Positions 19,451-54,100 of a stretch of DNA of 64,000 bases are shown here, one piece after another; within the stretch, counting starts at the first letter, position 1, and each line of letters opens with the position of its first letter. Under the pieces are notes generated by a model, which did not search any database, was not told the origin of the DNA, and saw nothing but the letters and a program-made list of their open reading frames with translations. The position numbers and the translations under genes are program-made. The DNA is taken from positions 35,084,033-35,148,032 of the forward strand of contig OY720344.1 in NCBI GenBank assembly GCA_963082975.1. The letters run 5' to 3'. The DNA comes from Labia minor (taxonomy: Eukaryota > Arthropoda > Insecta > Dermaptera > Spongiphoridae).

Positions 19451-21589
19451 GGTATGTTTTACTAAAATTAAAATTAATTATTTTAATTTTTATATAAAAT
19501 TTAGTAATTAAATTAAAATAAAATACAAGGGTAATATAATTTAGTCATTTTAATTGACGCTTTAAAAATTATTTTGACTTCATAAAATACTAAATAATAT
19601 TTTTTTTATTAGAAATTGATAAAATTTATATCTTATTATATATTATAGAAAAGAAGAAATATTCAAATAAATAAAGAATTTTTCTTTTGAAGGCGAAAGT
19701 AGGTCACTCAAACGACTGTAGCTTGTAAATGAATGTTCGAAATGTCAAGATACTTCATACATAAACTAGTGACAGATGAGTCTCTCGAAATGGGTCATTT
19801 TCATTTTCTGGCGTCATCTATTGAAAAATCCCGAGACTTTTCAGTCCATGTAGTAAAACATAAAACTTTTAATTTTATCTCTCTAATCTGTTCACTAAGG
19901 GTCAGGAGTAAACAGATACAGTTTTAAACATTGACAACATACGTCTCTAAAATTATTAAAATGGACCTGTTTATAAGGTCAATTCAAAAAATATATATAT
20001 ATTTAAGTTTAATTTTATTTTTATGAATTTTATTTTTAAATCTATTTTTTAAAATATATTTCATTAAATATTATAATTTTATTTATATTTTATTATGTTA
20101 ATGAGTTATTTTTAAAATATTTTGTATTTTTTATTTATTTTCAAGAATTCATATTATATGGACAACTAATTGAGCTTACTCTTTCTGATCCATACAAGTC
20201 AAATTCTGACAAAAATTTTGATGCTTTGATAAATCGAAACAAAAAAATTAATTAATATATTATTATTTAAAAAAAACAAGAGTTTTATTATTGGTCGGGT
20301 AGAAGTAATTAGTACGTAAGTTTTTTTTCAATAAGTAATCAAAGGATTTTTAAAAATCATGAATAAAAAACACGAAATATGAGAAGCAACCTTTTTATTA
20401 TATATTCTATCAAATTATGCTAATTTACTGAATCGGTGAGAACTAATCCCTCTTTTACTAAGTTATCCGATTATGTTTATTATGGGAATTAAGTAGGAAT
20501 GGGATTAAAAGTAAATAGTTAATAAATTGGTTACCCTCTTTCGAATATATTTGATTACACTTTGAACACGGATCAAAACCTCATGCAGGTGACTCATTCT
20601 CGGTAATTCATTTTAATAAAACCTTAAATCTCTTTAGGATAATCAATTACTATCCAAATACGAATTTATTCTTTGATCTTCGAGATTCGAAATGGATCTT
20701 CTATTTATTATTTAACTTGACTAATTTAACTTCTCTCTGAATAATTTGTATATAAATGAAGATCATTTATCTTTTAATTACATGTAACTATTTATTGAAT
20801 ATTGAATTCACTATATTGTCATTTGTGGGAGAAGTCAAGAAATGCTAACGAAGATGTAAATAATGAAAATAAGTTGAATGAAGATTAAAAATACTTATTC
20901 TATTATTATAAAATAGAAAATTATTAGATTATAGATAGAAAATTATTTTATTACATGTAGAAATAATATTAATGGACACAAAGTTTTATACTAACATAAA
21001 ACTAAGAAACTTTGCATATTAAAATCGATTTTCTTATCTAAAATTAAATTAAAGAAATAATAAAATACGATAAAACTTTGTATTATGTTAACTAACATTG
21101 CAACAGGTGTTATGGAAACAGGTCTATATCTTTTTTACTATCTCGCTAGAAAATTTTTGATGTTTTTATACGTTTTGAAGGCCCCTGAGTAATTTTCACT
21201 AAGGTTGAGAAAAATCTCTCTCTTTCTCTCCTGCTTGTTCACCGAGTATCTTTAATATAAAAAAAAATTCTTATTAAAGTTTATATTTATAAGTTTAATT
21301 TTAGTAAGTATATATTTTAATTTTTCTTTAAATTTTTGAGATTTTAAATGAAAGAAAGTAATGTGATAAATAATTATAAAATAATATTGAAGATTGGATT
21401 ATGTAAAATAAAGACGTTGCAACAGGTGTTATGTAACAAACTATATATTTACGAATATATACTCTTCAAATAAATTCAACTGGTACGTGAACTTCACATT
21501 ACTTTCATTTACAATACGGCTTCTCAACCTTTTCCCTCGCCCTCTTTTAAACTTTCTTTTCGTTTAATAGACTCCTATTTTAACCCACC
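19451..21589. other. AT-rich stretch, nothing recognised
   Basis: A fragment of the dispersed AT-rich repeat lies at 19450-19620. A slightly GC-richer piece at 19690-19960 has no recognisable product. The rest is spacer. Confidence 0.35.
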
Positions 21590-21594
21590 CACGA

Positions 21595-21850
21595 TAGGAA
21601 GGTATTTTTTTTCACTCCAAATTTCACATGTGGAGATTTTTACATAATATCTCCACGAATCATGCATTTTGTTAACATAAAAAAGTATTTTTAGCATGAT
21701 GTCTGTCCGTCCGTTGTGTGTCCGTATAGACGTGTACAGCTTGAACGGCTCAACGGATTTAGATAAAATTTGGGATATTAACTTAATGCATCAGTAGCAT
21801 GAATTCGTCAACTTTTGGTGTAGGCATATCGGAAAGTAATGAATTAATTT
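21595..21850. repeat. Modular CCGTCCGT dispersed repeat, partial copy
   Basis: It carries GGAGATTTTTACATAATATC, GTATTTTTAGCATGATGTCT, GTCCGTCCGT, GTGTACAGCTTGAACGGCTC and ATGCATCAGTAGCATGAATT in the same order as the plus-strand copy at 27754-27960. It ends in AACTTTTGGTG. No coding frame. Confidence 0.8.
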
Positions 21851-22370
21851 TATATTCATTGTCGGAAATTTTTTACTTAAAATATAGTAGTAATTAATAA
21901 TCGAATAATTAAACTAAAAATAAAAACCAAGATAATATAATTTAGTCATTTTAATTCAAGTTGTAAAAATATATTTTTTTTATACTTTATATATAATATA
22001 TATATATAATTTATTTCAAATCGTCGGTCGAATCTGTGCCTGGCCACATCTCATTTTTTTGATACAGTTCAAGTATATCAATAGAGTTTAACATAGAATT
22101 TTAGGCATTTAATAGAGTAAATTTTAACCAATTTTACAAAAAAGTTAATATTTTTATTACAATCGTAGTAGGAGAAAAAAATTACAATTCAATATTTTTT
22201 TTAAAAATAAATAATCTCATAAATGATTAATAAGAACAAGCTCGAGCCTCACCGCGGCCGCATACCGTATAATCAGCCACCTCTATAATTTAGATTATCA
22301 AAAATAAATAAGTATAATTATACAATCTAAAATTAAATTTATAAAAATATAAACTTTAATAAGAATATTT
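21851..22370. other. AT-rich spacer before the palindrome
   Basis: A fragment of the dispersed AT-rich repeat at 21840-21960, then low-complexity DNA. A short GC-rich patch (CTCACCGCGGCCGCATACCG at 22247-22266) stands out but matches nothing I know. Confidence 0.35.
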
Positions 22371-23829
22371 TTTATATAAAAATATTCAGTGAAATTTCAA
22401 TTGATATATTTGCATTTCAGTTGTTACACCATTATCAGAAGCTGTCTCAGTTGAGAAAGAAAAAAGTTTTCTTAAAATTTTTTATCAATGTGAGTTTCTT
22501 AAATATTAAAAATATTCTTATTAAGGTTTCTATTTCTTAGATTAATTTTAATTTACTTATATATATATAAACAATATAAATTTAAAATTTTACATCGAAT
22601 GCCTGCATTAAATTAATTTCTTTAAAAAGACTACATATAAATAATTTTAATATTAATATTGTTGATGAATAAATAAATAAAAAAAATAAAGCATAAACTA
22701 TATTCTGAAACTAAACCCATAACACCAGACATTCCTTGAAAGGCGATTTGACATTATCCTTAAAATATTTATTTTTAGGATTTATTAAATTATTTATCAT
22801 TATTTATATAATCTCATTCTTTTTTTTTTTACTAATTTAACATTGATTTTTTACTTTGTAAATATTATATAAAGAAAATATTAAACTATATTTTTGTTGT
22901 TCTTTACTATTATATCGTTTTACTATTTTGTCCTTGTGCTATTTTCTAAGAATTAATTCGAATAGCAGATATAATAATACCAGAGTCTTTACTTATTTGT
23001 TCTGTAGATTATTTAGTAAATAACAAGTTAAAATAAATTATCTATGAGAATCAAAATCACCTCTGATCTTTTTTGAACTATAATATCTCCATCTATCCTC
23101 CTCTAAATTAATAAATAATGTATTTTACCTGAACTCCCACGTGTTCCTACTTCGTGTCTCTTATCTTATTCTATTTCAGTGATAACTGAATAAATGAACA
23201 AATTTTTAACTAAATATAAATTAAATGAATTTTGGAATATTTGATTTTAAATAATTTTTTTTTTTTTTGAAATCTATAATTTTGATTGAATTTGAAAATT
23301 CAGAAATTAATTTGCTCAGAGAATACAAAAAAACCTCATTAACTTCAAATAATTGACTTATCATCACTTTTTAGTATTGTGTACTTATTCGATTTGAATT
23401 AAAGAGAGAAAAAGATGATATCATTAATTAGGACTTTACTAAATGAATGTTTAAAGTTGGAAACTTATTCAGGGAATGGTTTCATTAAAACATCAATTTC
23501 CTTTAGAGATTAGAAAAACATGTTAAAAAATATTGGATGGGCTTGGGCTAAAATAAAAATAAATTGTTTTTTCATCACTCCCTTCCAAAAGTTTTAATTA
23601 CATTGGTATTTTAACATTGATATAAAAATCACATGTCAATATATTTCTTTTATATATTTTTAAACTAAAAACCAAACTTAAAAAAAAATCGGGAGTGTCC
23701 TCCCCTAGACTTTCCCGCATATAAATAGGTATACAGAGTTGTGAATGAATATTTAGAATGTGTAAACTTGGTATTGATAAAGAGCCAGTTCGTGTTAGTT
23801 TATTGGTGTCAAATTTGATATTTGGTAAC

Positions 23830-23831
<2 letters not shown>

Positions 23832-23864
<33 letters not shown>
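23832..23864. repeat. (TA)n microsatellite in left arm
   Basis: About 16 TA units, with an equally long mirror copy at 28270-28302. Confidence 0.95.
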
Positions 23865-23868
<4 letters not shown>

Positions 23869-24725
23869 AAAGTGCTACTTCCGGTTAACTGATATTTTAA
23901 ATGTAAAAAAACAGATATGGATATAATATAAATATTTTTAATTTTATTTTATTTATAATATATAAGGGCTGGCTGTGACGTCATGAAGTGCTGGGTGACG
24001 TCATAAAATTTTCAATTAAGAAAAAACTAATGAAGATGATTTTTCTCGAGGATAAAACCAATACAAAGTGCATAACACGTGGAGATATGTCCTCACGTGA
24101 AATTTGATATGAAAATAACCCTTCACTTCCTCTCTCTTCGATCGGCAATACTAGCACTTCCGGTTTCCGGATTTGCACCAAAAGTTGATCAATTCATCAT
24201 ACTGATGCATTAAGTAAATATACCAAATTTCATCAAAATCAGTTTAGCCGTTCAAGCTGTACACATCTATACGGAGGGACGGACGGACGGACAGACATCA
24301 TGCTAAAAATACTTTTTTCTGTTAAGAAAATTCATGATTCGTGGAGATATGTACCTAAAAATATCCACAGGTGAAATTTGGTGTGAAAACAATACCTCCC
24401 TTTCTATCGTCGGTCGGTAAAAATGAAACGCTACTTGTATAGGTAAAATGTCACTTCCGGTAGTCAGATCATGATGAAATTTGGTATCTCAATTTTTTTC
24501 ATATTTTTAAATCTATATACAAAATATGAAGCAAATATCTCGAAGCAAACTGGTATTTTACTTGAAAGGTAAACGCAACCAGTGTAGGTAAAGTACCACT
24601 TCCGGTTAACCGATTTTGACGAAATTTTGATAGAAATCTACAAACTGTGAATAATATCGGTGTACCAAATTTCGAAGTCCTAGCTTGATTAGTTTTCTGA
24701 TTTGACATTTGGCTACTCAACATGT
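23865..24725 (-). repeat. Modular CCGTCCGT dispersed repeat (left arm copy)
   Basis: Contains CTTCCGG modules at 23879, 24148, 24453 and 24599; most are followed by a GAT..GAAATTT phrase, such as GATCATGATGAAATTTGGTA. It also carries a GGACGGACGGACGGACAGAC tract at 24275-24294 and a GTACACATCTATACGG phrase. The minus-strand frames (24181-23981, 24723-24499) are repeat-derived and not credible genes. The mirror copy is at 27409-28269. Confidence 0.8.
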
Positions 24726-24800
24726 TGGCTGCTTATCCAATGCAATTTCACTAAATGCATTGCAATTTTTATTTAATATTAAAATATATATTAAGCTTTA

Positions 24801-25868
24801 GGGTCATTCCACGTCAACTCATCCAGGCCGTTTCACCCAAAATCTCAGATTTTTATGAAAATTGGTAAATATGTTCTATTTATAAACATGAAAAACACCA
24901 CCAAATTTTAATTTTTTATCTCACATAGTTTTTGAGTAATGGCAGTTTAAAGATTGGCGTTTTTAAATTTCCGAGCCTCGGATAAGTCCAAATAAAACAT
25001 GTATTGGAGAAGAAAATAATTTCTCATTCACTTATTTAACCTCCTATCTTGTTGAAATTTTTAAGGCATGTTCTTATAACTATGAGGAATTGTAAAAAAA
25101 ATGTAACGGACCCCAAAATATTTTTAAAAAAATTATATGTTGGATATTATAAAATTTTAAAATTACAAACAAAGTTTAGCGTAAAATGAAATATCACGAC
25201 AAGGGAATGAGATAATCAAGAACTTTTTTTTTCCTAAATTATCTACATGAAATGGGCTTTAATTTAAATAAATAAAAGTTTTGTGTATTTGCCTCCTTCT
25301 ATTTACTAAGACCACTGCAAGTTACAACACATTAATTATGAGCAATATGAGAGTCTCAATGGCTGAATTTTGTTAATAATTAGACATTTTAATATTAAAT
25401 AAAATATTTTTACCTAAAAATGTCCATCGAAGGAAAGTTTAACAGCATTCTTACAACCAAAGTTTGAAAACTATGAGGAAGAAGATAGGATCGAATTCAA
25501 ACAGTGGGTAGCTACAGACAGGACACAGATGATAACTCAAACTTCAACCATTGATGAATTTATTGATGAACTAACAACAAAAATAGAAAAATTGATCCCA
25601 AATTCTTATATTGCAAAAAGTTAGTCGAGCTATTTTAAAAGTCTAAAGGATAACTGCGCGCCAAATCAAGCCATTATATCAATCAATTGACTTCAGCGAG
25701 AATTTCTCTTTTGTGATTCAAGATGAGGTACAGGGTTATCATTGGACCTCAGACTCCTGCACTGTTCACCCAGTAATAATTAACAAGAGTGTTGATGACA
25801 AAAAAATAGTCTCATCACATTGTATAATTTCCGATGACTTAAATCATGATGTTTGTATGGTTTATAAG
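24801..25868 (+). pseudogene. Broken transposase-like element half with terminus AGGGTCATTCC
   Basis: The segment starts with AGGGTCATTCCACGTCAA, which recurs inverted at 27316-27333 and, as TTGACGTGGAATGACCCT, at 31145-31162; it is probably the element end. From 25477 the plus strand reads EEEDRIEFKQWVATDRTQM, then STIDEFIDELTTKIEKLIPN, an in-frame TAG after AKS, then SSYFKSLKDN. After a frameshift comes DFSENFSFVIQDEVQGYHW and CTVHPVIINKS, then ISDDLNHDVCMVYK. This DFxENxSFxxQDExQGxHW / HPxVI / ISDDxxHD series is familiar to me from uncharacterised transposase-like proteins of animals. Stop and frameshift make it non-functional. Confidence 0.6.
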
Positions 25869-26093
25869 ATTCAAGATACCCTGTTAGAATACAATGATAA
25901 CCCTGTACCTCATCTTGAATCACAAAAGAGAAATTCTGGAGTGATTCAAGATACCCTGTTAGAATACAATGATAACCCTGTACCTCATCTTGAATCACAA
26001 AAGAGAAATTCTGGAGTGATTCAAGATACCCTGTTAGAATACAATGATAACCCTGTACCTCATCTTGAATCACAAAAGAGAAATTCTGGAGTG
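25869..26093. repeat. Three tandem 75-bp units
   Basis: Units start at 25869, 25944 and 26019, each beginning ATTCAAGATACCCTGTTAGA and ending GAGAAATTCTGGAGTG. Each unit contains, inverted, the piece of the transposase-like region that encodes FSFVIQDEVQGYH. At 26094 the sequence switches to the opposite orientation (ATTCAAGATGAGGTACAGGG). Confidence 0.93.
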
Positions 26094-26198
26094 ATTCAAG
26101 ATGAGGTACAGGGTTATCATTGTATTCTAACAGGGTATCTTGAATCTTATAAACCATACAAACATCATGATTTAAGTCATCGGAAATTATACAATGTG
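26094..26198 (-). repeat. Inverted return copy of the inner unit up to the gap
   Basis: Reverse complement of about 25834-25938, so the strand turns back on itself before the gap. Confidence 0.85.
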
Positions 26199-26398
26199 NN
26201 NNNNNNNNNNNNNNNNNNNNNNNNNNNNNNNNNNNNNNNNNNNNNNNNNNNNNNNNNNNNNNNNNNNNNNNNNNNNNNNNNNNNNNNNNNNNNNNNNNNN
26301 NNNNNNNNNNNNNNNNNNNNNNNNNNNNNNNNNNNNNNNNNNNNNNNNNNNNNNNNNNNNNNNNNNNNNNNNNNNNNNNNNNNNNNNNNNNNNNNNNN
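26199..26398. other. Assembly gap of 200 N
   Basis: Exactly 200 undetermined bases at the centre of the palindrome. A round number suggests a placeholder of unknown true length. Frames reported across it are meaningless. Confidence 0.97.
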
Positions 26399-27408
26399 CC
26401 CTGTACCTCATCTTGAATCACAAAAGAGAAATTCTCGCTGAAGTCAATTGATTGATATAATGGCTTGATTTGGCGCGCAGTTATCCTTTAGACTTTTAAA
26501 ATAGCTCGACTAACTTTTTGCAATATAAGAATTTGGGATCAATTTTTCTATTTTTGTTGTTAGTTCATCAATAAATTCATCAATGGTTGAAGTTTGAGTT
26601 ATCATCTGTGTCCTGTCTGTAGCTACCCACTGTTTGAATTCGATCCTATCTTCTTCCTCATAGTTTTCAAACTTTGGTTGTAAGAATGCTGTTAAACTTT
26701 CCTTCGATGGACATTTTTAGGTAAAAATATTTTATTTAATATTAAAATGTCTAATTATTAACAAAATTCAGCCATTGAGACTCTCATATTGCTCATAATT
26801 AATGTGTTGTAACTTGCAGTGGTCTTAGTAAATAGAAGGAGGCAAATACACAAAACTTTTATTTATTTAAATTAAAGCCCATTTCATGTAGATAATTTAG
26901 GAAAAAAAAAGTTCTTGATTATCTCATTCCCTTGTCGTGATATTTCATTTTACGCTAAACTTTGTTTGTAATTTTAAAATTTTATAATATCCAACATATA
27001 ATTTTTTTAAAAATATTTTGGGGTCCGTTACATTTTTTTTACAATTCCTCATAGTTATAAGAACATGCCTTAAAAATTTCAACAAGATAGGAGGTTAAAT
27101 AAGTGAATGAGAAATTATTTTCTTCTCCAATACATGTTTTATTTGGACTTATCCGAGGCTCGGAAATTTAAAAACGCCAATCTTTAAACTGCCATTACTC
27201 AAAAACTATGTGAGATAAAAAATTAAAATTTGGTGGTGTTTTTCATGTTTATAAATAGAACATATTTACCAATTTTCATAAAAATCTGAGATTTTGGGTG
27301 AAACGGCCTGGATGAGTTGACGTGGAATGACCCTAAAGCTTAATATATATTTTAATATTAAATAAAAATTGCAATGCATTTAGTGAAATTGCATTGGATA
27401 AGCAGCCA

Positions 27409-28265
27409 ACATGTTGAGTAGCCAAATGTCAAATCAGAAAACTAATCAAGCTAGGACTTCGAAATTTGGTACACCGATATTATTCACAGTTTGTAGATTT
27501 CTATCAAAATTTCGTCAAAATCGGTTAACCGGAAGTGGTACTTTACCTACACTGGTTGCGTTTACCTTTCAAGTAAAATACCAGTTTGCTTCGAGATATT
27601 TGCTTCATATTTTGTATATAGATTTAAAAATATGAAAAAAATTGAGATACCAAATTTCATCATGATCTGACTACCGGAAGTGACATTTTACCTATACAAG
27701 TAGCGTTTCATTTTTACCGACCGACGATAGAAAGGGAGGTATTGTTTTCACACCAAATTTCACCTGTGGATATTTTTAGGTACATATCTCCACGAATCAT
27801 GAATTTTCTTAACAGAAAAAAGTATTTTTAGCATGATGTCTGTCCGTCCGTCCGTCCCTCCGTATAGATGTGTACAGCTTGAACGGCTAAACTGATTTTG
27901 ATGAAATTTGGTATATTTACTTAATGCATCAGTATGATGAATTGATCAACTTTTGGTGCAAATCCGGAAACCGGAAGTGCTAGTATTGCCGATCGAAGAG
28001 AGAGGAAGTGAAGGGTTATTTTCATATCAAATTTCACGTGAGGACATATCTCCACGTGTTATGCACTTTGTATTGGTTTTATCCTCGAGAAAAATCATCT
28101 TCATTAGTTTTTTCTTAATTGAAAATTTTATGACGTCACCCAGCACTTCATGACGTCACAGCCAGCCCTTATATATTATAAATAAAATAAAATTAAAAAT
28201 ATTTATATTATATCCATATCTGTTTTTTTACATTTAAAATATCAGTTAACCGGAAGTAGCACTTT

Positions 28266-28269
<4 letters not shown>
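27409..28269 (+). repeat. Modular CCGTCCGT dispersed repeat (right arm copy)
   Basis: Exact inverted counterpart of 23865-24725, with TGTCCGTCCGTCCGTCC near 27840. Confidence 0.8.

Positions 28270-28302
<33 letters not shown>
28270..28302. repeat. (TA)n microsatellite in right arm
   Basis: Mirror copy of 23832-23864, same length. Confidence 0.95.
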
Positions 28303-28304
<2 letters not shown>

Positions 28305-29763
28305 GTTACCAAATATCAAATTTGACACCAATAAACTAACACGAACTGGCTCTTTATCAATACCAAGTTTACACATTCTAAATATTCATTCACAACTCTG
28401 TATACCTATTTATATGCGGGAAAGTCTAGGGGAGGACACTCCCGATTTTTTTTTAAGTTTGGTTTTTAGTTTAAAAATATATAAAAGAAATATATTGACA
28501 TGTGATTTTTATATCAATGTTAAAATACCAATGTAATTAAAACTTTTGGAAGGGAGTGATGAAAAAACAATTTATTTTTATTTTAGCCCAAGCCCATCCA
28601 ATATTTTTTAACATGTTTTTCTAATCTCTAAAGGAAATTGATGTTTTAATGAAACCATTCCCTGAATAAGTTTCCAACTTTAAACATTCATTTAGTAAAG
28701 TCCTAATTAATGATATCATCTTTTTCTCTCTTTAATTCAAATCGAATAAGTACACAATACTAAAAAGTGATGATAAGTCAATTATTTGAAGTTAATGAGG
28801 TTTTTTTGTATTCTCTGAGCAAATTAATTTCTGAATTTTCAAATTCAATCAAAATTATAGATTTCAAAAAAAAAAAAAATTATTTAAAATCAAATATTCC
28901 AAAATTCATTTAATTTATATTTAGTTAAAAATTTGTTCATTTATTCAGTTATCACTGAAATAGAATAAGATAAGAGACACGAAGTAGGAACACGTGGGAG
29001 TTCAGGTAAAATACATTATTTATTAATTTAGAGGAGGATAGATGGAGATATTATAGTTCAAAAAAGATCAGAGGTGATTTTGATTCTCATAGATAATTTA
29101 TTTTAACTTGTTATTTACTAAATAATCTACAGAACAAATAAGTAAAGACTCTGGTATTATTATATCTGCTATTCGAATTAATTCTTAGAAAATAGCACAA
29201 GGACAAAATAGTAAAACGATATAATAGTAAAGAACAACAAAAATATAGTTTAATATTTTCTTTATATAATATTTACAAAGTAAAAAATCAATGTTAAATT
29301 AGTAAAAAAAAAAAGAATGAGATTATATAAATAATGATAAATAATTTAATAAATCCTAAAAATAAATATTTTAAGGATAATGTCAAATCGCCTTTCAAGG
29401 AATGTCTGGTGTTATGGGTTTAGTTTCAGAATATAGTTTATGCTTTATTTTTTTTATTTATTTATTCATCAACAATATTAATATTAAAATTATTTATATG
29501 TAGTCTTTTTAAAGAAATTAATTTAATGCAGGCATTCGATGTAAAATTTTAAATTTATATTGTTTATATATATATAAGTAAATTAAAATTAATCTAAGAA
29601 ATAGAAACCTTAATAAGAATATTTTTAATATTTAAGAAACTCACATTGATAAAAAATTTTAAGAAAACTTTTTTCTTTCTCAACTGAGACAGCTTCTGAT
29701 AATGGTGTAACAACTGAAATGCAAATATATCAATTGAAATTTCACTGAATATTTTTATATAAA

Positions 29764-30210
29764 CAGGGTATCTTGAATCTTATAAACCATAAAGAAGAGG
29801 GATAGGATCGAATTCAAACAGTGGGTAGCTACAGACAGGACACAGATGATAACTCAAACTTCAACCATTGATGAATTTATTGATGAACTAACAACAAAAA
29901 TAGAAAAATTGATCCCAAATTCTTATATTGCAAAAAGTTAGTCGAGCTATTTTAAAAGTCTAAAGGATAACTGCGCGCCAAATCAAGCCATTATATCAAT
30001 CAATTGACTTCAGCGAGAATTTCTCTTTTGTGATTCAAGATGAGGTACAGGGTTATCATTGGACCTCAGACTCCTGCACTGTTCACCCAGTAATAATTAA
30101 CAAGAGTGTTGATGACAAAAAAATAGTCTCATCACATTGTATAATTTCCGATGACTTAAATCATGATGTTTGTATGGTTTATAAGATTCAAGATACCCTG
30201 TTAGAATACA
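29764..30210 (+). repeat. Third copy of the transposase-like segment (direct)
   Basis: From about 29795 it repeats 25478-25868 at a constant offset of 4317, with small changes at its start (AAAGAAGAGGGATAGG against GAGGAAGAAGATAGG). It retains the TAG after AKS. Before it, 29764-29790 is an out-of-place piece of the inner unit. Confidence 0.85.
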
Positions 30211-31162
30211 ATGATAACCCTGTACCTCATCTTGAATCACAAAAGAGAAATTCTCGCTGAAGTCAATTGATTGATATAATGGCTTGATTTGGCGCGCAGT
30301 TATCCTTTAGACTTTTAAAATAGCTCGACTGACTTTTTGCAATATAAGAATTTGGGATCAATTTTTCTATTTTTGTTGTTAGTTCATCAATAAATTCATC
30401 AATGGTTGAAGTTTGAGTTATCATCTGTGTCCTGTCTGTAGCTACCCACTGTTTGAATTCGATCCTATCTTCTTCCTCATAGTTTTCAAACTTTGGTTGT
30501 AAGAATGCTGTTAAACTTTCCTTCGATGGACATTTTTAGGTAAAAATATTTTATTTAATATTAAAATGTCTAATTATTAACAAAATTCAGCCATTGAGAC
30601 TCTCATATTGCTCATAATTAATGTGTTGTAACTTGCAGTGGTCTTAGTAAATAGAAGGAGGCAAATACACAAAACTTTTATTTATTTAAATTAAAGCCCA
30701 TTTCATGTAGATAATTTAGGAAAAAAAAAGTTCTTGATTATCTCATTCCCTTGTCGTGATATTTCATTTTACGCTAAACTTTGTTTGTAATTTTAAAATT
30801 TTATAATATCCAACATATAATTTTTTTAAAAATATTTTGGGGTCCGTTACATTTTTTTTACAATTCCTCATAGTTATAAGAACATGCCTTAAAAATTTCA
30901 ACAAGATAGGAGGTTAAATAAGTGAATGAGAAATTATTTTCTTCTCCAATACATGTTTTATTTGGACTTATCCGAGGCTCGGAAATTTAAAAACGCCAAT
31001 CTTTAAACTGCCATTACTCAAAAACTATGTGAGATAAAAAATTAAAATTTGGTGGTGTTTTTCATGTTTATAAATAGAACATATTTACCAATTTTCATAA
31101 AAATCTGAGATTTTGGGTGAAAAAATGACTATTTTCTGGTTGAATTGACGTGGAATGACCCT
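30211..31162 (-). repeat. Fourth copy of the element half (inverted), ending at the element terminus
   Basis: From about 30218 to 31116 it repeats 26399-27297 at an offset of 3819. It differs in two telling ways. The codon after AKS is CAG (30330-30332 region on the minus strand), not TAG. Its terminal 46 bases read AAATGACTATTTTCTGG… rather than the CGGCCTGGATGAG version before the shared TTGACGTGGAATGACCCT. Sequence after 31162 is unrelated to the arms. Confidence 0.85.
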
Positions 31163-33600
31163 TTAATCACACCTGCAACATATGTCGCCATTTCTCTTTT
31201 CAATTGTCAATAGAAAAAATATTAAAAATTAATTAAAATTTAATGAAATTTTAATTTTTACAATTTCTAATTGATTAAAAATATATTTTCCGAATAAGTA
31301 TATGTAAAATCTTTAAATCATTGAAAACGTTGAATTATATTGTTCAAGTAGAATTAGAAGAAATTATAGGAATTAAAGTGGGAGGTACTTATAAATAATG
31401 ATCTAAATAAAAATGGCCATGGTTAATTTTAATGTAACGTTTAACATTTGGAGGTAGGTGAGCTAATCAATTAAGATTAAAATAATTGACGATAATGAAG
31501 TTTTAATTTAAATTGAAAACGTTTCTCTTTTTAAAGCAAACAAAATAATTATTATTATGACAAGCGTTATCGTCATTAGCCGTTCATTATTCTTTGAATG
31601 TTGTTTGTTTTTTTACAATTTTTGACTATTTTCAATGAATGAGAGTAAATTCAAAGAAAACATTTGTGTTTCCTGCAATTCATTAATATAATTATTAGTT
31701 AGTTTATTTAATTATTATTGTTGTATGAAAAAGATGAGTATTCGGTTAATTTCTTTGATGTATGAAATTATTTTTAATTATAATGATCGATGTCATTACA
31801 TACAAAGAATGTTCTTATATATCATACATTCTTTTGTTAAAATTCTGGAATTCTTCTTGAGAATTATTTAGTTACATATGTTTACATTTTATTGTGTTAT
31901 TAGACATGGCAGTTAATTCCAATTTTAATTATTTAATGATTATATATATATATATATATATATATAATGCCTTAATATATATTTAATTTTATGTTTATAT
32001 AATATTTTAATAAATTGATGTATGAAATGAAAATATTAAATACTCATTACCATATAGTTTTAATCAAATTGTAGGTGGAAAGCATTAAAAATAGCATCTA
32101 CTAATTGAAAATTCACGAATGTAATTACTAACTGATAGGCAAAACCAAATCGAAAACACGAATGTTCTGGTCGTATCAACTACTCGTACATTCATTCATT
32201 AACCTATCCCATTCTCATGCCAAATGAATCGCAATTCTCTTTCCCTCTATTGCTCTCTCACTCTCACAAATAAATATATAAAATATAATTTTGTATTATT
32301 ATTTGAAAACCTTTAATTAAATAACATATTATACTTACTAAAGAGGAAAATAAAAATAATAATAATTTAAAATATTATTAATTTTCAAATCAAATTACAA
32401 TTAATTAACTTTGGGTAAAATATGAGTTTAACTAAAGTAAAAATATTTGGTTATAAATTTATTCATTATAATAAATGAGAAATTCAAACAAAAACTCTTC
32501 CCTCCCCTCCTGTAACTAGCTATAATTCATAAATTGTTATTTACTCTAAGATTTATTACATAAATGATAGTCAGTGAACAATACATCAATTATATATATT
32601 TAATTGTTCCATTTTGTGTAGGATTTAAAGAGAAATGAACTTTGACTTTCATGAATAAACATCTATCTCGAATGGACCGATTTATTCTGAAAACATCCAC
32701 TGGGATAGAGATTTGGACTACAAATAGAAAATGAAAATTGAGATAAAGAATGACTGACAATAGCCATTAAATTCAGAGCGTATCATGCATAGAAATCTTT
32801 TTCAGTGAACCGGTTGCTTGTGGTTGGATTTAACGTGTCCTTTGCGTTTCCAATGAGACGGGACCATTGACGCTCTTCTACTAACAACTAAATCCCACCG
32901 TCTTATCATAAGAAATTGCTTTTTTAACTATAAAATCCTTGGATTCAATATATACCATTTTTCACAATTAAATGGAATATATTACATAACTAAAAACAAT
33001 GGTAATTATTTTAGTTGATTTTTGAATATAATTCATAAAGTATTTAAATTTTAATTAAATTAATAAATCAATGCTTTTAATTAGTCTTTGTTGTTTGTCT
33101 TTTTGTTTTTACTTGATTTCGGGAAGTAAATCAATTTTAGCCAGTATTTTCATTAATTATATAATTATTAAATCTTTAAACTAAGTGCATTTGGCACTTA
33201 ATTAACCTGAATCAGAAATACTCGGTTATTAAAATATTAACATTAATAATAAACTCTCTCCTAAGTGTTTAAATTTAAATTAATATTATTAATATAAGAA
33301 TTTATTTTTTTCAATTTTATTTTTAGTTTTATATTTTTATTTAGATCTTTTTACTTTTTACAATGTTATCCATTATACTTTGTTCCCAGCAAGCTTTTTT
33401 ATGTGAATGTGTGCTTTCTTTGCACTAAATTATTCATTTTTTTAAATAATAATTTCTTTTGGAAAATCTAGCTGATTAGAATCTAAATTTTCACAATTTT
33501 TCTCTTTGAAATACTTCTAAAATTGATTTATATTTATATTATATATTTGTATTTTGGAATAAGTAAAATTTTCTTAAATAAATTAAAACAAAATAACTAA
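31163..33600. other. AT-rich stretch, nothing recognised
   Basis: A (TA)n microsatellite lies at 31940-31966. A slightly GC-richer unique patch at 32640-32900 shows no coding signature. No gene seen. Confidence 0.4.
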
Positions 33601-35308: not shown

Positions 35309-35507
35309 TACGAGGTAGGGTCAAAAAGTTCGCGGAATGGTCGCTTATAGTCAAGTATTTCTTAGCTGAAAGGGAAATTTTTGTTTGTGAGGTTGGCATA
35401 ACTGGTAGTGAATGTGCTTTTGAGGTTAGCAGGCAGTTGTAGTTGGTTCCGTGCGTTCGGTGTTTAATATTGTAGATCGTAGTTTCTTTCTTTCGTCGGA
35501 TTGTGCA

Positions 35508-35999
35508 ATGTCGTCATTAGAGCAGCGTGGCAATATTAAATTCTGTGTGTTGCTGGAGAAATCACCCTCGGAGACTCTTGAGATGCTAAAAAAAGCATAC
35601 GGAAATTCTGCGATGAAGAAAACAGCAGTTTACGAGTGGCATAAGCGTTTTCGCGACGGTCGCACAACAATTGATGATGACGTTCGGACTGGGCGGCCTT
35701 CCACTACAGACGACAATGTTGAGCGCGTTCGACAAATTGTGCGTGCGGACAGACGAACAACCATCAATAATATTGCCTCTGAAGTTGGTATTTCACATGG
35801 GAGTGTTCACAGCATTCTTCATAATGACTTGAACATGCATCGTGTTTGCTTGCACTTTGTTCCAAAAATGTTATCCCCTGAGCAAAAGGAAATGAGAGTG
35901 ACCCTGTCCAGGGACTTGATTGAAATGGCTGATGCAGATGACAGCTTCCTACCTGTTTCCAAGGTTAAAAATGGCATTGAAGGGACATCGTTTTGCTGA
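35508..35999 (+). pseudogene. Mariner transposase, N-terminal DNA-binding part
   Basis: I chose the ATG at 35508 (MSSLEQRGNIKFCVLLEKSP) because known mariner transposases start near such a sequence; the longer frame from 35451 extends into the untranslated leader. It encodes the first helix-turn-helix (AVYEWHKRFRDGR), the GRP hinge (DVRTGRPSTT), and a second helix-turn-helix (NNIASEVGISHGSVHSILHN). It stops being mariner-like after DADDSFL, just before where the first catalytic Asp block should appear. The three catalytic acidic residues are missing, so the protein could bind DNA but not transpose. Confidence 0.92.
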
Positions 36000-39164: not shown

Positions 39165-40330
39165 ATATCTCCACCACTACAACTTTTACCCACCATTCTT
39201 GCACCATGGCGATAAAAGTACGATGTTGGTTTGTCAGCGTAATATTCATCAATCCATTTTCTCACTTCTTCAGCATTTCGAAACCATGTGCCAGCCTTGA
39301 CATGTTGTATCGTTGCAATCTTCAGGTTTTACTAGCCTTTCCTGGTGAGTTGACAATCACAACCCTGGTTATAGGTATATAATATGCTTAAGTAAAAAAA
39401 AAAGAAAACAAATGTAAATAAAACATAATATAATTAAGTAAAATTGTAATAGCGTATCAATAAATGATTGCAAAAGAAACAATTTAATCTTGTAAATATT
39501 GTAACTTTCATCTTTTGTATGTTCTGATAATCTCTCTCTCTCAACAATTGTAAAAATTTTATTTTTTTGGCTAATAAACATACTCTTTAAATTGAAATAC
39601 ATATTTTATCGCTCTTAACAAGTGGTAATCACACACACACAGAAGACTATGTCTGGTGAGTACGTTGGGTGCGGTAGAACTTTCCATTTGGCTGTAACGT
39701 TGTCATGGAAGAGAATGACTTTGGTTCTGTTACACGCTATTGCTAGTCTTTTTTGAAACAATACGTCGTTCAATTTGTTCAGTTGACCTAGGTAGACATC
39801 TACAGTTAAAGTTTCATTGGATTTTAGCATCTTGTAATACACTACACCCTTCTGATCACATAGCAAGACTTGATGGCCATGAATATTCCGTTTTGGTGTC
39901 GATATAAATGGCTCTCTTGGACTAACCCATGACTTTCGGGATTGTTGTAGTAGATCCACTTTTAATCGCTAGTCACAATACGCCACAGAAAATTCTTCTT
40001 TTTTACCTGGCAAGCAATGAAACCTCGATATTGAAACGGTTCGAAATGGCATTTCAGTCAATTCATGTGGTAGCCATTTTTCCTATTTCGTATCTTTCCT
40101 ATTGTAAACGTATTAAAACAGTTGATTCATCTAGGCTAGATCTTTTGTGAGTTTGTGCTAGCTTCTCGTCTAATAAGAATTGCAATTCAATGTCTTCAAA
40201 CTTTTTTGGTCCTCTAGACCGTTCTTTGACATTGACATCAAAATCACCACTTTTGAATTGTTGAAACCCAAATTAACTTATTTCTCCAAATCAAACAACA
40301 AAAAGTAATGAATGCCGAAAATGCAATTTT
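39165..40330 (-). pseudogene. Decayed mariner transposase (second family)
   Basis: From right to left on the minus strand: GDFDVNVKERS and KFEDIELQFLLDE (about 40240-40160, N-terminal domain), then HELTEMPFRTVSI and LPGKKEEFSVAYCD with stops, then the open frame 39959-39615 containing KSWVSPREPFISTPKRNIHG, HQVLLCDQKGVVYYKMLKSN, KVILFHDNV and WKVLPHPTYSPD. Finally WFRNAEEVRKWIDEYYADK lies at about 39300-39245. The order and motifs match mariner transposases of a family different from the 35.3-kb element. Several frameshifts and a 280-bp insertion (about 39330-39610) break it. The HDNARPH motif is truncated. No terminal repeats were found. Confidence 0.85.
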
Positions 40331-48157: not shown

Positions 48158-51100
48158 CTGAAACAGAATAAAACAAAAGACATCAAAATACAAACCTAAT
48201 AACTATAAGGATTATAATATATATATTCAGATATTATTCAAAAATTATTTCACTAATAATACTAATTTAATATACTTGCATGGTATATTATTATAATTAC
48301 AATATAAAAATAAATATAGATATAGATGTAGAATATTTAAAACAAGATATGCTGTGTGTGAACATATATTTTACTGTTCTAATTTTTAAAAATAATCCAT
48401 TTTCAGAACTGATATAACCTAATATATATTCATGTCAAGTTCGCTCGTGAGATTTGGTTTGGGGATGAGGATGGATTGGGAGCTTGATTTGAATTTAAAA
48501 TATATATCCTCCCTCTTCTTTCGGAATTTTGATAGCTGAAATTTTGTTATATTAATGGAAAATTAATTAAAATACAGTAATTATATGTGTTTTTTTAATT
48601 TTTGCTTTGGTCTGTGTATAGTACATTTCCCATTCCTTTCTTATTAATATATTCGCGATGGAATAAACTGTGAGGTAATTCAGTAACATTTTAAAATATA
48701 AAGTATGATATTTATTTTATGTTATTATATGAAATTGCAATAAAAAATAAAATTTCTGTATAAGGTTCTTTCTGTTTATAAAGCGAATGAAGGTCAAGAT
48801 TACTTACTAGATAATTAATGAAAGGCGCTGAGAGTAAAAGTAACCGTCCGAAACAGGTGGCTGAGAAAAGAGTCCATTTTTTCATTGTATTGTTGGGAAA
48901 AAATTCTCCGGCCTGTACCGAAATTTGTGTTAAAGCACAGGCAGCGGCAACTCGACCGACTGACCCAAATACGAGCATGTCTGGATGATATGGATCCGGA
49001 AGATAACTGCAAAAGGCCATTGGCAGACCTCCGATTAAAAGGAGTATTGTCAATGCCAGCCATTTAAAGTCCTGCAGAAACATAATGACCACGCCCAAAA
49101 GCACACCAAGGATTTCACAAACACCTGAAATGGAAAAAGAACTTTGCATTTAAGGTGAAATTTGAAAAAATACATAATACAATAAATAAACTAATTTGGT
49201 AAATCTGTTAAAAATACTGTTATATTTTTTTAAACTTAAAATCATAAATTATATTAATTAAATATATTTATAAAATTCTAAGGTTTGGAGGAAAAATTAC
49301 CATTAAAAAAAATTAAATGATTTTCTTTTTAAAATTGATAAATTATTGATATATGAATGTTTAATAATTAAAATAAATAATTATTTAAAGACATTTTTTT
49401 ATAATGATCTTAAAAAAAGATGATAGAAAAAGAAAAATGACAAGAATTTCAGTTTCTCGTGATTTTGATTAACTTCAAAAGAGACTCTTAACAGTCAAAG
49501 GTTAAATGAACAGAACTAAATGATTTAAATTGATCTTCTGTAATATATTATACTTTATTTTGAATCTTATGACATAGAATAGTAAATTAATTGATAAGTA
49601 ACTATATATATCTTAAGAAGTATTTATTTATATGATTGATTAAAGGCTTGGGATTAATTGTTTTTGAAATTATTAAATATGAATTTAATTATTTCTTTGT
49701 AAAAAAATTTATTCAATTAAGATACATATATTCAAGTTATGGAAAATGTGGAATGAATAAAGTGAAAATTACACAAAAGATTTTTTTGATCAATTAATTA
49801 TTAATTAAGTTCAGTTCAAATAATCTTGTGATGATGACATTTGATTAAATAATTTTTTTATCAATATGCCTGCATATTTTTAAATTTTACGAAAATTCAA
49901 AAATGTTATACATTGAAAAGAATCTCGATTATTCTGTCAAAATAACGAGAAGTAAAATAATCATAAAACATGGAAAATTAATTTTTTTTTATAATAGACC
50001 TTTAATAACATTGTTGAATTTTTCAAAACTACATTATCGTTTAACTAGAACATTAAATACAAGTAATTCCTTTACCAAAAAATATACATTAAAAAAATAA
50101 GTTGACCTGTGGCCAGGTCCGAACCGACCGACGGTTTGAAATAAATTAATTTCCAGCTACAGAAACAATTTCAAATAATTTTAATATATCTATTAATGTA
50201 ATAAAAAACAGATATGGATATAACATAAATATTTTTAATTTTATTTTATTTATAATATATAGTTGAAGTAGCCGGCGTTGCCGGCGTTACCCGAGGCTGT
50301 GACTTCATGAAGGGCTGGGTGACGTCATATAATTATAAATTAAGAAAAACATAATGAAGATGATTTTTCCCGAGGATAAAACCAATACATTCGTGGTGAT
50401 ATGTAAAAAAATCTCCTTATGTGAAATTTGGTGCGAAAATAACCCTTCCCTTCTTATCGTTGATCGCTAATACTACCACTTCCGGTTTCCGGATTTGCAC
50501 CAAAAGTTGATCAATTCATCCCACTGATGCATTAAGTAAATATACCAAATTTCATCAAAATCCGTTAAGCCGTTCAGGCTGTACACATCTATACGGACGG
50601 AGAGACGGACGGACAGACATCATGCTAGAAATACTTTTTTCTGTTAAGAAAATGCATGATTCGTGGAGATATGTAAAAATCTCCACATGTGAAATTTGGT
50701 GTGAAAACAATACCTCCCTTACTATCGTCGGTCGGTAATAAGAATGTACATAAGATGCATTTGAAAACACATATTTATGAGTAATCACAATTTTATTAAC
50801 ACACAATAACTTACATCCTTATTCAAATTTAGAAACAAAAGCCATTGGAGTTTTCGTTTTCTTATTAGAAGCTATTTTTGAGGGGTAAATAAATCAGAAT
50901 TTTTTTCTTATTAGAAGCTATTTTTGAGGGGTAAATAAATCAGAATTTTTTTTCATTCAATCACAAAATCTCAAAATCAAAATCAAAGTTCTACTGAATT
51001 AGTATAATGAAAAAAAAATTACCTAAATAATAAATTTAACCTCTTAAAAACATATGTATTTTATTGTTTTACTGTTGTTCAAAAGACGCTATCTCTTCTT

Positions 51101-54100
51101 ACATACATTCTTTAATTTTTAATTTACTACGGTTCTGTGTGACATAATTTTCATTAAAATATCTTTAATATAACTTTAGAAATCATTATTTAAAAATGTA
51201 GAATTGTAGAAAAAAATGAGAAGGTTCACTTATCTCATATCTTAAATTCAGAAATAAAATATTTTTAATATTAATAACAGTTACTACCATGAATTATTTA
51301 TCCGAGCGTTAAAAACATTTCTAATATACAATAAATAAATAAATATATTCTCATCTTTTTTGTCATATAACGATGATTAATTTTAATTGCTGAGGCGATA
51401 TGGAATAGAGAATATATGTTAGCATATATGACTTAATTATAAAGACATAACTGATATTTTTCATTAGTAACTTTAAATAATTAATTACTAAAATTTTATA
51501 AGTATTATTATTTTAATGTAGTTTTCGGGTAAATGGATTAACAGATATAAAAATGAATTTTCTACGTTATAATATCTTTAATTTAAATCATTTTATATGT
51601 TTTAAGGTTCAATTAAATCGATTGATTCAATTTGTTATTCATAATTAAATATTTTTATAATTTTAAGAGTTTTTCAATTTTAAAATATTATGTTACATTA
51701 TCCTATTATATAAGTTTATAAGTTTTTTTACTTTGAAACAAACCAAATATTCATTTTTTAGATTAATATATATATATTTATATACAGAAAAATCTCCTTA
51801 TTCGCGCTTCCTTCATTCGCGTTTTCTCTATTCGCGGGTTAAAAAAATGAGACCCAATTCCTATATTCGCGTCTAAAAATGTCTTTATTCGTGGATCTAA
51901 TAAGTACATACATAATAATAGAAGGATTCCAATAGGCATTCAACCCAATATCCTTTGTAAATGCTTCAAATAGGCGCCTTCCCCGCGATAGGTGTTTTTG
52001 AGAATGTAAACAAACTGAATCCACACACCTTGAAGTCATACTGGAAAAAACTGTCATCTTCTCTGACTGCGGAAAATGACAAATAATCTGTGCAAGTTCA
52101 AACTTTGACTGCAAACATATCCGAAATCGCGAATGGAATAGGACGAGATGGGTTATACAGGAATCGCAAGATTTGCCTGAAAGTAGTAAATGTAAAATTC
52201 ACAGAAGAAGAAGCTTCAACAAGCAGTGGAAATCTGACAGTTATTTTGAAAAATTTTAGTGAAAGCTTAAGAATGGTAAATCAGCTTTGCGATTTCTTTA
52301 TGAACATTGATCCGTCTATAAAAACGAAGTCTTATTTTTAAGAGGCAAATTGCTAATGCTACTGCTGCGTATCAGGCTGAATTGAAGGAGCTTTTAAAAA
52401 CTGCCAAGAAAGAGAAAATTACAAAATTCTTCAAACCATTGCCTAAGCCTAAAGTTGATTAATCAAAATGTTCCTAAACTTCAATTAAATTGATTTTATT
52501 ATTTTTTTGTCACTTAGGAATGTATCCCCTATAATCCCATATAAATTACCATTCCCTATTCACGGTTTCTGTATTCGCGTCATATTTATGAAACATATAC
52601 CCCGCGAATAAGGAGTTTTTACTGTATATATATTAATATTATATCTAACAAAAATGTATATGCTGTTCTTATTTTGAGAATTATCCGCGTGATTTTTATG
52701 AATACTTCATTTATTTTGAAGTTTTTCCAGAGAGATAAATCATTATTTCATTATTAGTTTTTAATTTATTAAAGTAATTAATAATAAATGTAAATTTCAC
52801 CTCAAAAAACCCTAATACGTGAATTTCATAAAAATTCTACTGATTATTTTCAAATTCATAAAAGTATATAAGAGATCATAATTATATAATTTTTCTCAGC
52901 CCTACCCAAGTTTAAATTATACATTTTATTTTTATTTTCATAATTTGTAATATGTATTTAAAAACAATTTTATTGGTTTTTTTTATTATAATCCATCTCG
53001 CTGTCCTTTCTCTTAAAATTATCTTTCATAGAATGAATAATATTATTAATTTAAGTTTATATTTCATGAGAAAAATTAATTGATTTATCTAAGTATTATT
53101 TATATAATTATTTCAAATAAAATTTATTTTTACTTAATTTGAAAAAAAAAATTATAAAAAAATGTATTGTGTTATATTTATGTTATTTTAATCCTTTTAT
53201 CCAATTCATTATTGAATTGATGTGTTAATTTTGAGCGATTGATACGAAACTTACCTGCTATTGAGATATTGAAATATAAATGAGGTCCCCAGTTGTTGGA
53301 ATTAAGTAAACCTCCATAGTAATTAACAATAATACAAGCGAACACAATATGTATCGCAATGATTCGTGTAATTGATACTGGCAATGAAAGGGATGGAGGA
53401 GGCTTTTCATTCTTTTGCTCCACTTCGGTTGGTGGAGGGTCCATGGAGATGTCCGGAATAGTCCAAGACAAGGACAGTAGCACTATCGCTGGAACTGAGA
53501 TACAGAGTTGAAGTAATCGCCAGGAGGGAATGAAATAACCCAACAGACTTAGAGTGAGCGTGCCTAACGACCTACAAAATAATAATACTTTATCACATAT
53601 GCGGTTATTTTTAGCACTTGGATTAATTAAACTTATTCATGTAATAATTAATATTTTCATTTAAACAATTAAGTAGTGTTTAATTTTTTTTATATAAAAA
53701 TATTATAAATGAAATGTCCTTAGAGTAGAAGTTATAGGAGAAAAAAAAAAGAAATAAATAAATAGAAAAATTATCTAGAAATCTGACTAAAATAAGATTA
53801 TTATTTTGAAAAACAAATGGTCTTCGTCAACTGATTAGATATTGAAAATTATTTTATTTAATATTGTAAAATCTTTAATCATATTTAATGATTGGTATTC
53901 ATGAAAATTTGTTATTATTTAATAATTTAATTATTTCTTTATTTGCAATTTAATTTTCAATTTAAAGAGTACGTTTATTAGCCAAAATTTACAATATATC
54001 AGAACAAACAAAAGATGAAAGTTACAATATATGATGGATTTTCTATATTTTCGAAATATGAATATATTAATAATTTTTTCCTTTTTCAATTTTGGAATGT

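Follow-up and report, generated by a model that had tools for sequence, protein, structure and literature searches.

A foldback transposon at the center of a long palindrome in the assembled genome of Labia minor: a probable fold-back rearrangement at the element's hairpin

The 64,000-nucleotide stretch of the dermapteran Labia minor analyzed in this work (the window; assembly GCA_963082975.1, contig OY720344.1, positions 35,084,033 to 35,148,032, with window positions used below) contains a long palindrome that surrounds a foldback DNA transposon. When each base i was paired by script with base 52134 − i, 22371 to 25735 and 26399 to 29763 were exact reverse complements over 3,365 bp, with 0 mismatches and 0 gaps, and beyond 22371 the pairing failed at most positions. 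Self-BLAST recovered the same inverted match, which is far above chance expectation and is the longest self-match in this AT-rich window (GC content of 22.7 to 31.7% per 4-kb block), the next being 954 bp. An earlier description made from the letters alone (the original prediction) had reported 3.4-kb arms without divergence, positions summing to 52134 throughout, and a (TA)n tract of equal length in both arms. All of this was borne out, the sum holding from 22371/29763 to 25735/26399 and (TA)16 lying at 23833 to 23864 and 28270 to 28301 within the mismatch-free run. The 200-N gap on which the palindrome was said to be centered is present at 26199 to 26398, but the numbering is symmetric about 26067, left of the gap, which falls in the right arm. 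Open frames do translate alike in both arms as described, but this merely restates the identity of the DNA. Those of at least 70 amino acids, with frames crossing the N run left out, have 77, 70, and 77 amino acids and give no evidence of being genes, although no library scan was aimed at them. We rejected a gene palindrome because the arms hold only these frames and two fragments of the element had no Pfam match above the cutoff. Two features had been missed, namely, a partial third copy at 29801 to 31161 and 3.1 copies of a 75-bp unit at 25868 to 26102. In self-BLAST, 24800 to 25744 recurs inverted at 30209 to 31162 (98.5%) and 25468 to 25937 recurs forward at 29784 to 30254 (98.9%).

The locus is a single insertion, at 24801 to 31161, of a nonautonomous foldback DNA transposon of ~2,044 bp. 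Members of the family have two ~950-bp inverted arms flanking a ~148-bp loop, the ends GGGTCATTCC, and a 4-bp target duplication. A search of the genome (604 Mb in 71 sequences) with 24600 to 25923 as the query gave 283 candidates, of which 40 were scored, with 122 matches. We examined 31 other loci, 28 from this search and three from a further one; these are the best-scoring copies for one element half and hence not a random sample. The 28 loci listed outside the window begin within ~45 bases of 24800, and most of them run forward to ~25892 and then immediately backwards from ~25744. Lengths of 2,023 to 2,060 bp were found in 23 of the 27 other two-ended copies, 11 of them exactly 2,044 bp, and the remaining four measure 1,283, 1,837, 2,234, and 2,319 bp. 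Subterminal bases distinguish a left-type from a right-type end, and one of each is present in 27 of the 31 other copies (all but L012, L025, L040, and L041, which have one of the two). The 10-bp pair GATTCAAGAT/ATCTTGAATC, 34 nucleotides apart, likewise occurs in 27 of the 31. In its ~950-bp arms, dispersed copies, and 4-bp duplications, the family has the makeup of foldback elements, that is, elements with long terminal inverted repeats (TIRs). Tetris of Drosophila virilis is also nonautonomous, with long inverted arms and a short middle, but its target duplication is 8 to 10 bp (PMC4079207). No Mutator-type or Tetris-like duplication of that length was seen among the 28 two-ended copies, this locus included. 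Equal flanks of exactly 4 bp were found in 26 of them, and the flank match never exceeds 4 bases.

Copies differ in their internal arrangement. The family has two forms, which in L011 to L041 differ in how the central loop is oriented with respect to the left- and right-type ends. On a tree of 24 of the 32 rows, from which 8 incomplete or rearranged copies were excluded, the loop orientations amount to one change that separates two subfamilies of 13 and 11 rows, and repeated flipping of the loop was rejected for this reason. The terminal columns, by which the two forms are defined, were retained in the tree; its bootstrap support is not settled, and its window row was joined from two stretches and is one base short at the join. 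The 2,234-bp copy (L039:1216-3449) is a near-perfect palindrome over its full length, loop included (98.2% over 2,252 columns). It lies in gapless assembly with a 4-bp duplication, is without the 10-bp stem pair, and is perhaps an internal fold-back confined to the element. In the 2,319-bp copy (L029:1503-3821), ~264 bp of other sequence lies in the right arm between element positions 592 and 601, and a 356-bp part of that arm is 100% identical to the left arm.

The copy in the window carries an extra insert of ~4.3 kb, whose order we read from an exact-match decomposition and BLAST. On the forward strand, 2,430 bp of host flank (22371 to 24800, including TTTA at 24797 to 24800) is followed by the left half of the element (24801 to 25892), which comprises the left-type end, the arm to 25744, and the loop from 25745 to 25892. 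Past the axis at 25892, the sequence runs 46 arm bases backwards, adds the 5-nucleotide filler GGAGT, returns to 25868, and repeats; this filler joins the 75-bp units on the forward strand. The stutter junction containing GGAGT gave 2 hits in a genome search allowing at most 1 mismatch, both at this locus. The 10-bp stem GATTCAAGAT, the proposed fold-back primer, lies at 25868 to 25877 on the forward strand, and the complementary ATCTTGAATC lies at 25912 to 25921, 25987, 26062, and 26137 to 26146. The left contig closes with the flipped axis and the first bases of the right arm (26091 to 26198, reverse strand), its final 76 bases being right arm already (inverted 25891 to 25816).

Past the gap, the left half of the element recurs in inverted form at 26399 to 27334 on the reverse strand, and the inverted left flank of the host, down to base 22371, occupies 27335 to 29763 on the same strand, adjoining the complementary form of TTTA. 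Where the element copy meets the inverted host flank, there is an additional left-type end, itself inverted. The return junction (29764 to 29800) consists of a 28-bp patch of inverted 25883 to 25856, which holds ATCTTGAATC again at 29770, and 9 bases without an exact match, and AA is common to both sides at 29762 to 29763. A gapped alignment reads the nine bases as an altered 25468 to 25483 and carries the last forward piece to 29784 with few mismatches; judged from this alignment, they could represent element sequence that has changed. The element is then re-entered at 25484 to 25892 (29801 to 30209, forward strand), followed by its true right arm with a right-type end (30210 to 31161, reverse strand), the right target-site duplication TTTA (31162 to 31165, forward strand), and the right flank (31166 to 32300).

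Single bases identify the source of the inner inverted arm. The true right arm differs from the left at one base outside the subterminal block (25622/30331), and the inner arm has the left-arm base at this site together with a left-type end (in the 27300 to 27334 region). Therefore, the inner arm derives from the left half rather than from the right arm. Because the inverted copy spans the border between the element and TTTA, the copying took place later than the insertion. Two separate insertions in opposite orientation were rejected, as the inner end is left type and is followed by TAAA, which does not match TTTA.

Next, the ends of the element bear on whether the scaffold joins true neighbors. 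The original prediction had offered as one option that the assembler joined a contig to its own reverse complement, and exact inverted arms around an N run are what such a join by the scaffolder would produce. However, the outer DNA into which the arms lead is different on the two sides, and that of each side is present at full length once in the genome. The stretch from 21300 to 22370 has one full-length match plus a dispersed repeat midway, and 31166 to 32300 has one full-length match and four short ones. For the copied flank, the genome search covered 22371 to 22900 and gave two full-length matches, both at this locus, besides short, partial ones; 22901 to 24599, outside that search, holds a dispersed repeat. 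Additionally, the two outermost termini belong to one element, as its left and right ends, and are bordered by matching TTTA, a 4-mer agreement expected by chance in ~1% of cases at this base composition. The outer pieces, 24801 to 25892 (1,092 bases) and 30210 to 31161 (952 bases), sum to 2,044, the commonest length in the family. These matching duplications and lengths imply that the outer flanks were neighbors before the insertion and that the scaffold order is right. A wrong join is thus highly improbable, and target duplications together with element ends can be used to test for true adjacency where a palindrome coincides with a scaffold gap.

The N run has a length that we take to be the scaffolder's default. 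Paired positions sum to 52014 for the right-arm segment that lies on the left contig and to 52134 past the gap, and this difference of 120 implies that the 200 N stand for 80 bp (inverted 25815 to 25736) if nothing else is hidden. With a gap of 80 bp, symmetry is perfect from 22371 to 25923, giving arms of 3,553 bp, in which the 80 gap bases match by construction because they were supplied from the complementary arm. The stem then pairs 25868 to 25877 with 26137 to 26146, and mismatches occur only inward from 25924. On this arithmetic, the two contig ends are compatible with a single structure that lacks 80 bp between them.

The gap also raises the possibility that the contig ends are chimeric, such that an amplification or sequencing polymerase folded back in vitro at the hairpin element and the assembler retained the products where two contigs should meet in an ordinary 2,044-bp copy. 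The N gap lies within the palindrome, the right contig begins there, and the arms are identical, as a chimera would have it. Comparable molecules have been described: ~26 to 38% of tardigrade mitochondrial reads were palindromic after whole-genome amplification, often with multiple inversions (PMC13265396), and ~0.55 to 0.6% of nanopore reads of genomic DNA were foldback reads (PMC12870357). In contrast, virtually no foldback reads were found in PacBio HiFi data from three samples (PMC12870357), a point that bears on the present assembly only if it was made from such data. Furthermore, random chimeras should disagree between reads, whereas the junctions form one coherent structure across both contig ends. 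Other copies of the element also assemble without gaps. No N occurs in L011 to L038 (28 other copies), and within L001 to L038 N is found only in L009 and L010, which are this locus; the element alone is therefore not usually the cause of an assembly break. Given this evidence, we regard chimeric contig ends as unlikely but as an explanation to be taken seriously.

We favor a real and recent fold-back rearrangement at the hairpin of the transposon, to which we assign a probability of roughly 0.64. The order of the pieces and the junctions, from which we infer the process, can be read directly in the assembly, as can the element and its target duplications. As the sequence shows, a ~2,044-bp foldback element inserted and duplicated TTTA. 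In the proposed course, a break or stalled fork would later have arisen at the hairpin axis, and synthesis from the left flank would have reached the axis of the element and turned by folding back at the 10-bp inverted repeat GATTCAAGAT/ATCTTGAATC. From there, reverse copying would have taken in the loop, then the left half, and finally 2,430 bp of the adjoining host DNA. Synthesis would next have switched back, re-entering the element at 25484 by way of the 28-bp patch and the nine unmatched bases, and gone on to the right flank. The expected product is an element with intact ends that carries its own flank inverted, in a palindrome with 3.55-kb arms. The right arm runs outward exactly after ATCTTGAATC at 26137 to 26146, and junctions at the 10-bp repeat are what priming by fold-back at a short inverted repeat would predict. 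Since the loop itself was copied in reverse, more than pairing of the long arms must be invoked, as such pairing alone would not give it. The arms show no difference, which suggests that the event was recent.

Several observations weigh against this fold-back origin. The assembly breaks inside the structure, and 0 differences in 3,365 bp of AT-rich, microsatellite-bearing DNA is also expected from a duplicated read or a chimeric molecule. The case is single. An inverted captured flank (a minus-strand match of at least 100 bp at at least 95% identity) was found in 0 of the 27 other two-ended copies, in which 0.3 to 1.5 kb was scanned per side, the four one-ended copies not being included; weaker inverted matches (67 to 86%) lie within one flank in 5 of the 27. 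The return junction, with its nine bases, is no clean microhomology switch. Lastly, the stem has alternative pairings, since GATTCAAGAT is also present at 25715.

Identity of the arms could also reflect an older palindrome kept uniform by gene conversion, and conversion between arms is known for long palindromes (PMC6790999). The parts of this copy that belong to the ordinary element form the shortest end branch of the tree, however (0.00065, with a path of 0.0045 to the nearest copy), and a long history is not needed. Nor are the true arms unusually alike, with 5 mismatches and 2 gaps against 4 to 5 mismatches in the closest other copies. Conversion and recency are not separable from one genome, but we consider an old, converted palindrome very improbable; when it is counted in, a real rearrangement of either age becomes slightly more probable than the recent event by itself. 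The original prediction had put forward a very recent inverted duplication or one maintained by conversion. Its duplication fits, but the cause, the foldback transposon at the center, had gone unseen.

The proposed fold-back rearrangement has relatives among known systems. Human inverted duplications have 2 to 8 bp of inverted microhomology at 13 junctions (PMC3907307), and in yeast without Sae2 or Mre11 nuclease activity, inverted duplications arise at high frequency from a break close to an 11-bp imperfect repeat (PMC10622511). The structure at this locus is like both in that it turns at a short inverted repeat near the putative break and inverts the adjacent DNA; its inverted copy starts at such a repeat and leaves an uncopied spacer, with the inferred 80 bp included. 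The human cases reach up to megabases and involve terminal deletions, translocations, or rings (PMC3907307), whereas synthesis at this locus would have returned after 3.5 kb and left the chromosome intact. Template switching between inverted repeats can flip the spacer between them, which the flipped axis resembles (PMC8604942).

Capture of nearby DNA by gap filling has been described for TIR transposons in a survey of 100 animal genomes (PMC8277862). Among the 281 unique Pack-TIRs in that survey, 160 lie less than 15 kb from their source and 190 show microhomology at one break point or at both; the break points fall preferentially in the interior of the element (PMC8277862). Single-copy Pack-TIRs of animals are like the present copy in being intact-ended TIR transposons with a target duplication and internal break points and in having a very nearby source, capture after insertion, and small homologies at the switches (PMC8277862). 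In the window, 2.43 kb of flank that is not transposable element lies between the ends 24801 and 31161, with TTTA on both sides, and its source is the adjacent left flank. The switches have the 10-bp axis repeat and AA at 29762 to 29763, but 9 bases are unmatched, and one of the switch ends (22371) is in flank DNA. Unlike in Pack-TIRs, the adjacent flank and half of the element appear to have been captured in reverse, which yields a palindrome; the terms "inverted duplication" and "palindrom" are absent from that paper (PMC8277862). If the fold-back origin is correct, the locus would show, at base resolution, a transposon that has taken up its own flank in inverted form and would link foldback elements, gap filling of the Pack-TIR kind, and the birth of palindromes at one site.

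Most likely, the palindrome has no function and is a mutational by-product of a hairpin-forming transposon. If transcribed, it could give a long hairpin RNA, but going by sequence, this would apply equally to any intact copy of the family, whose ~950-bp arms are already inverted repeats. The family as a whole might act as a dispersed generator of inverted duplications of host DNA and of new long-hairpin RNA loci directed against neighboring genes, a notion we entertain because the 10-bp inverted repeat sits at the hairpin tip of so many copies and which we hold to be quite doubtful.

In the rest of the window, scans for tRNA genes and Rfam families gave 0 hits each. A dispersed repeat is found at 23900 to 24423, within the duplicated host flank, and again at 50195 to 50741 and 21577 to 21820 (85 to 87% alike). 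Just left of the palindrome border, 21577 to 22060 belongs to a very abundant repeat, with 5,153 candidates in a first look. Pieces of a mariner-type transposase (HTH_48 and Transposase_1 matches) lie at 35430 to 35999 and 39615 to 39968, and a perfect tandem repeat of 46 bp × 2.1 occupies 50857 to 50952.

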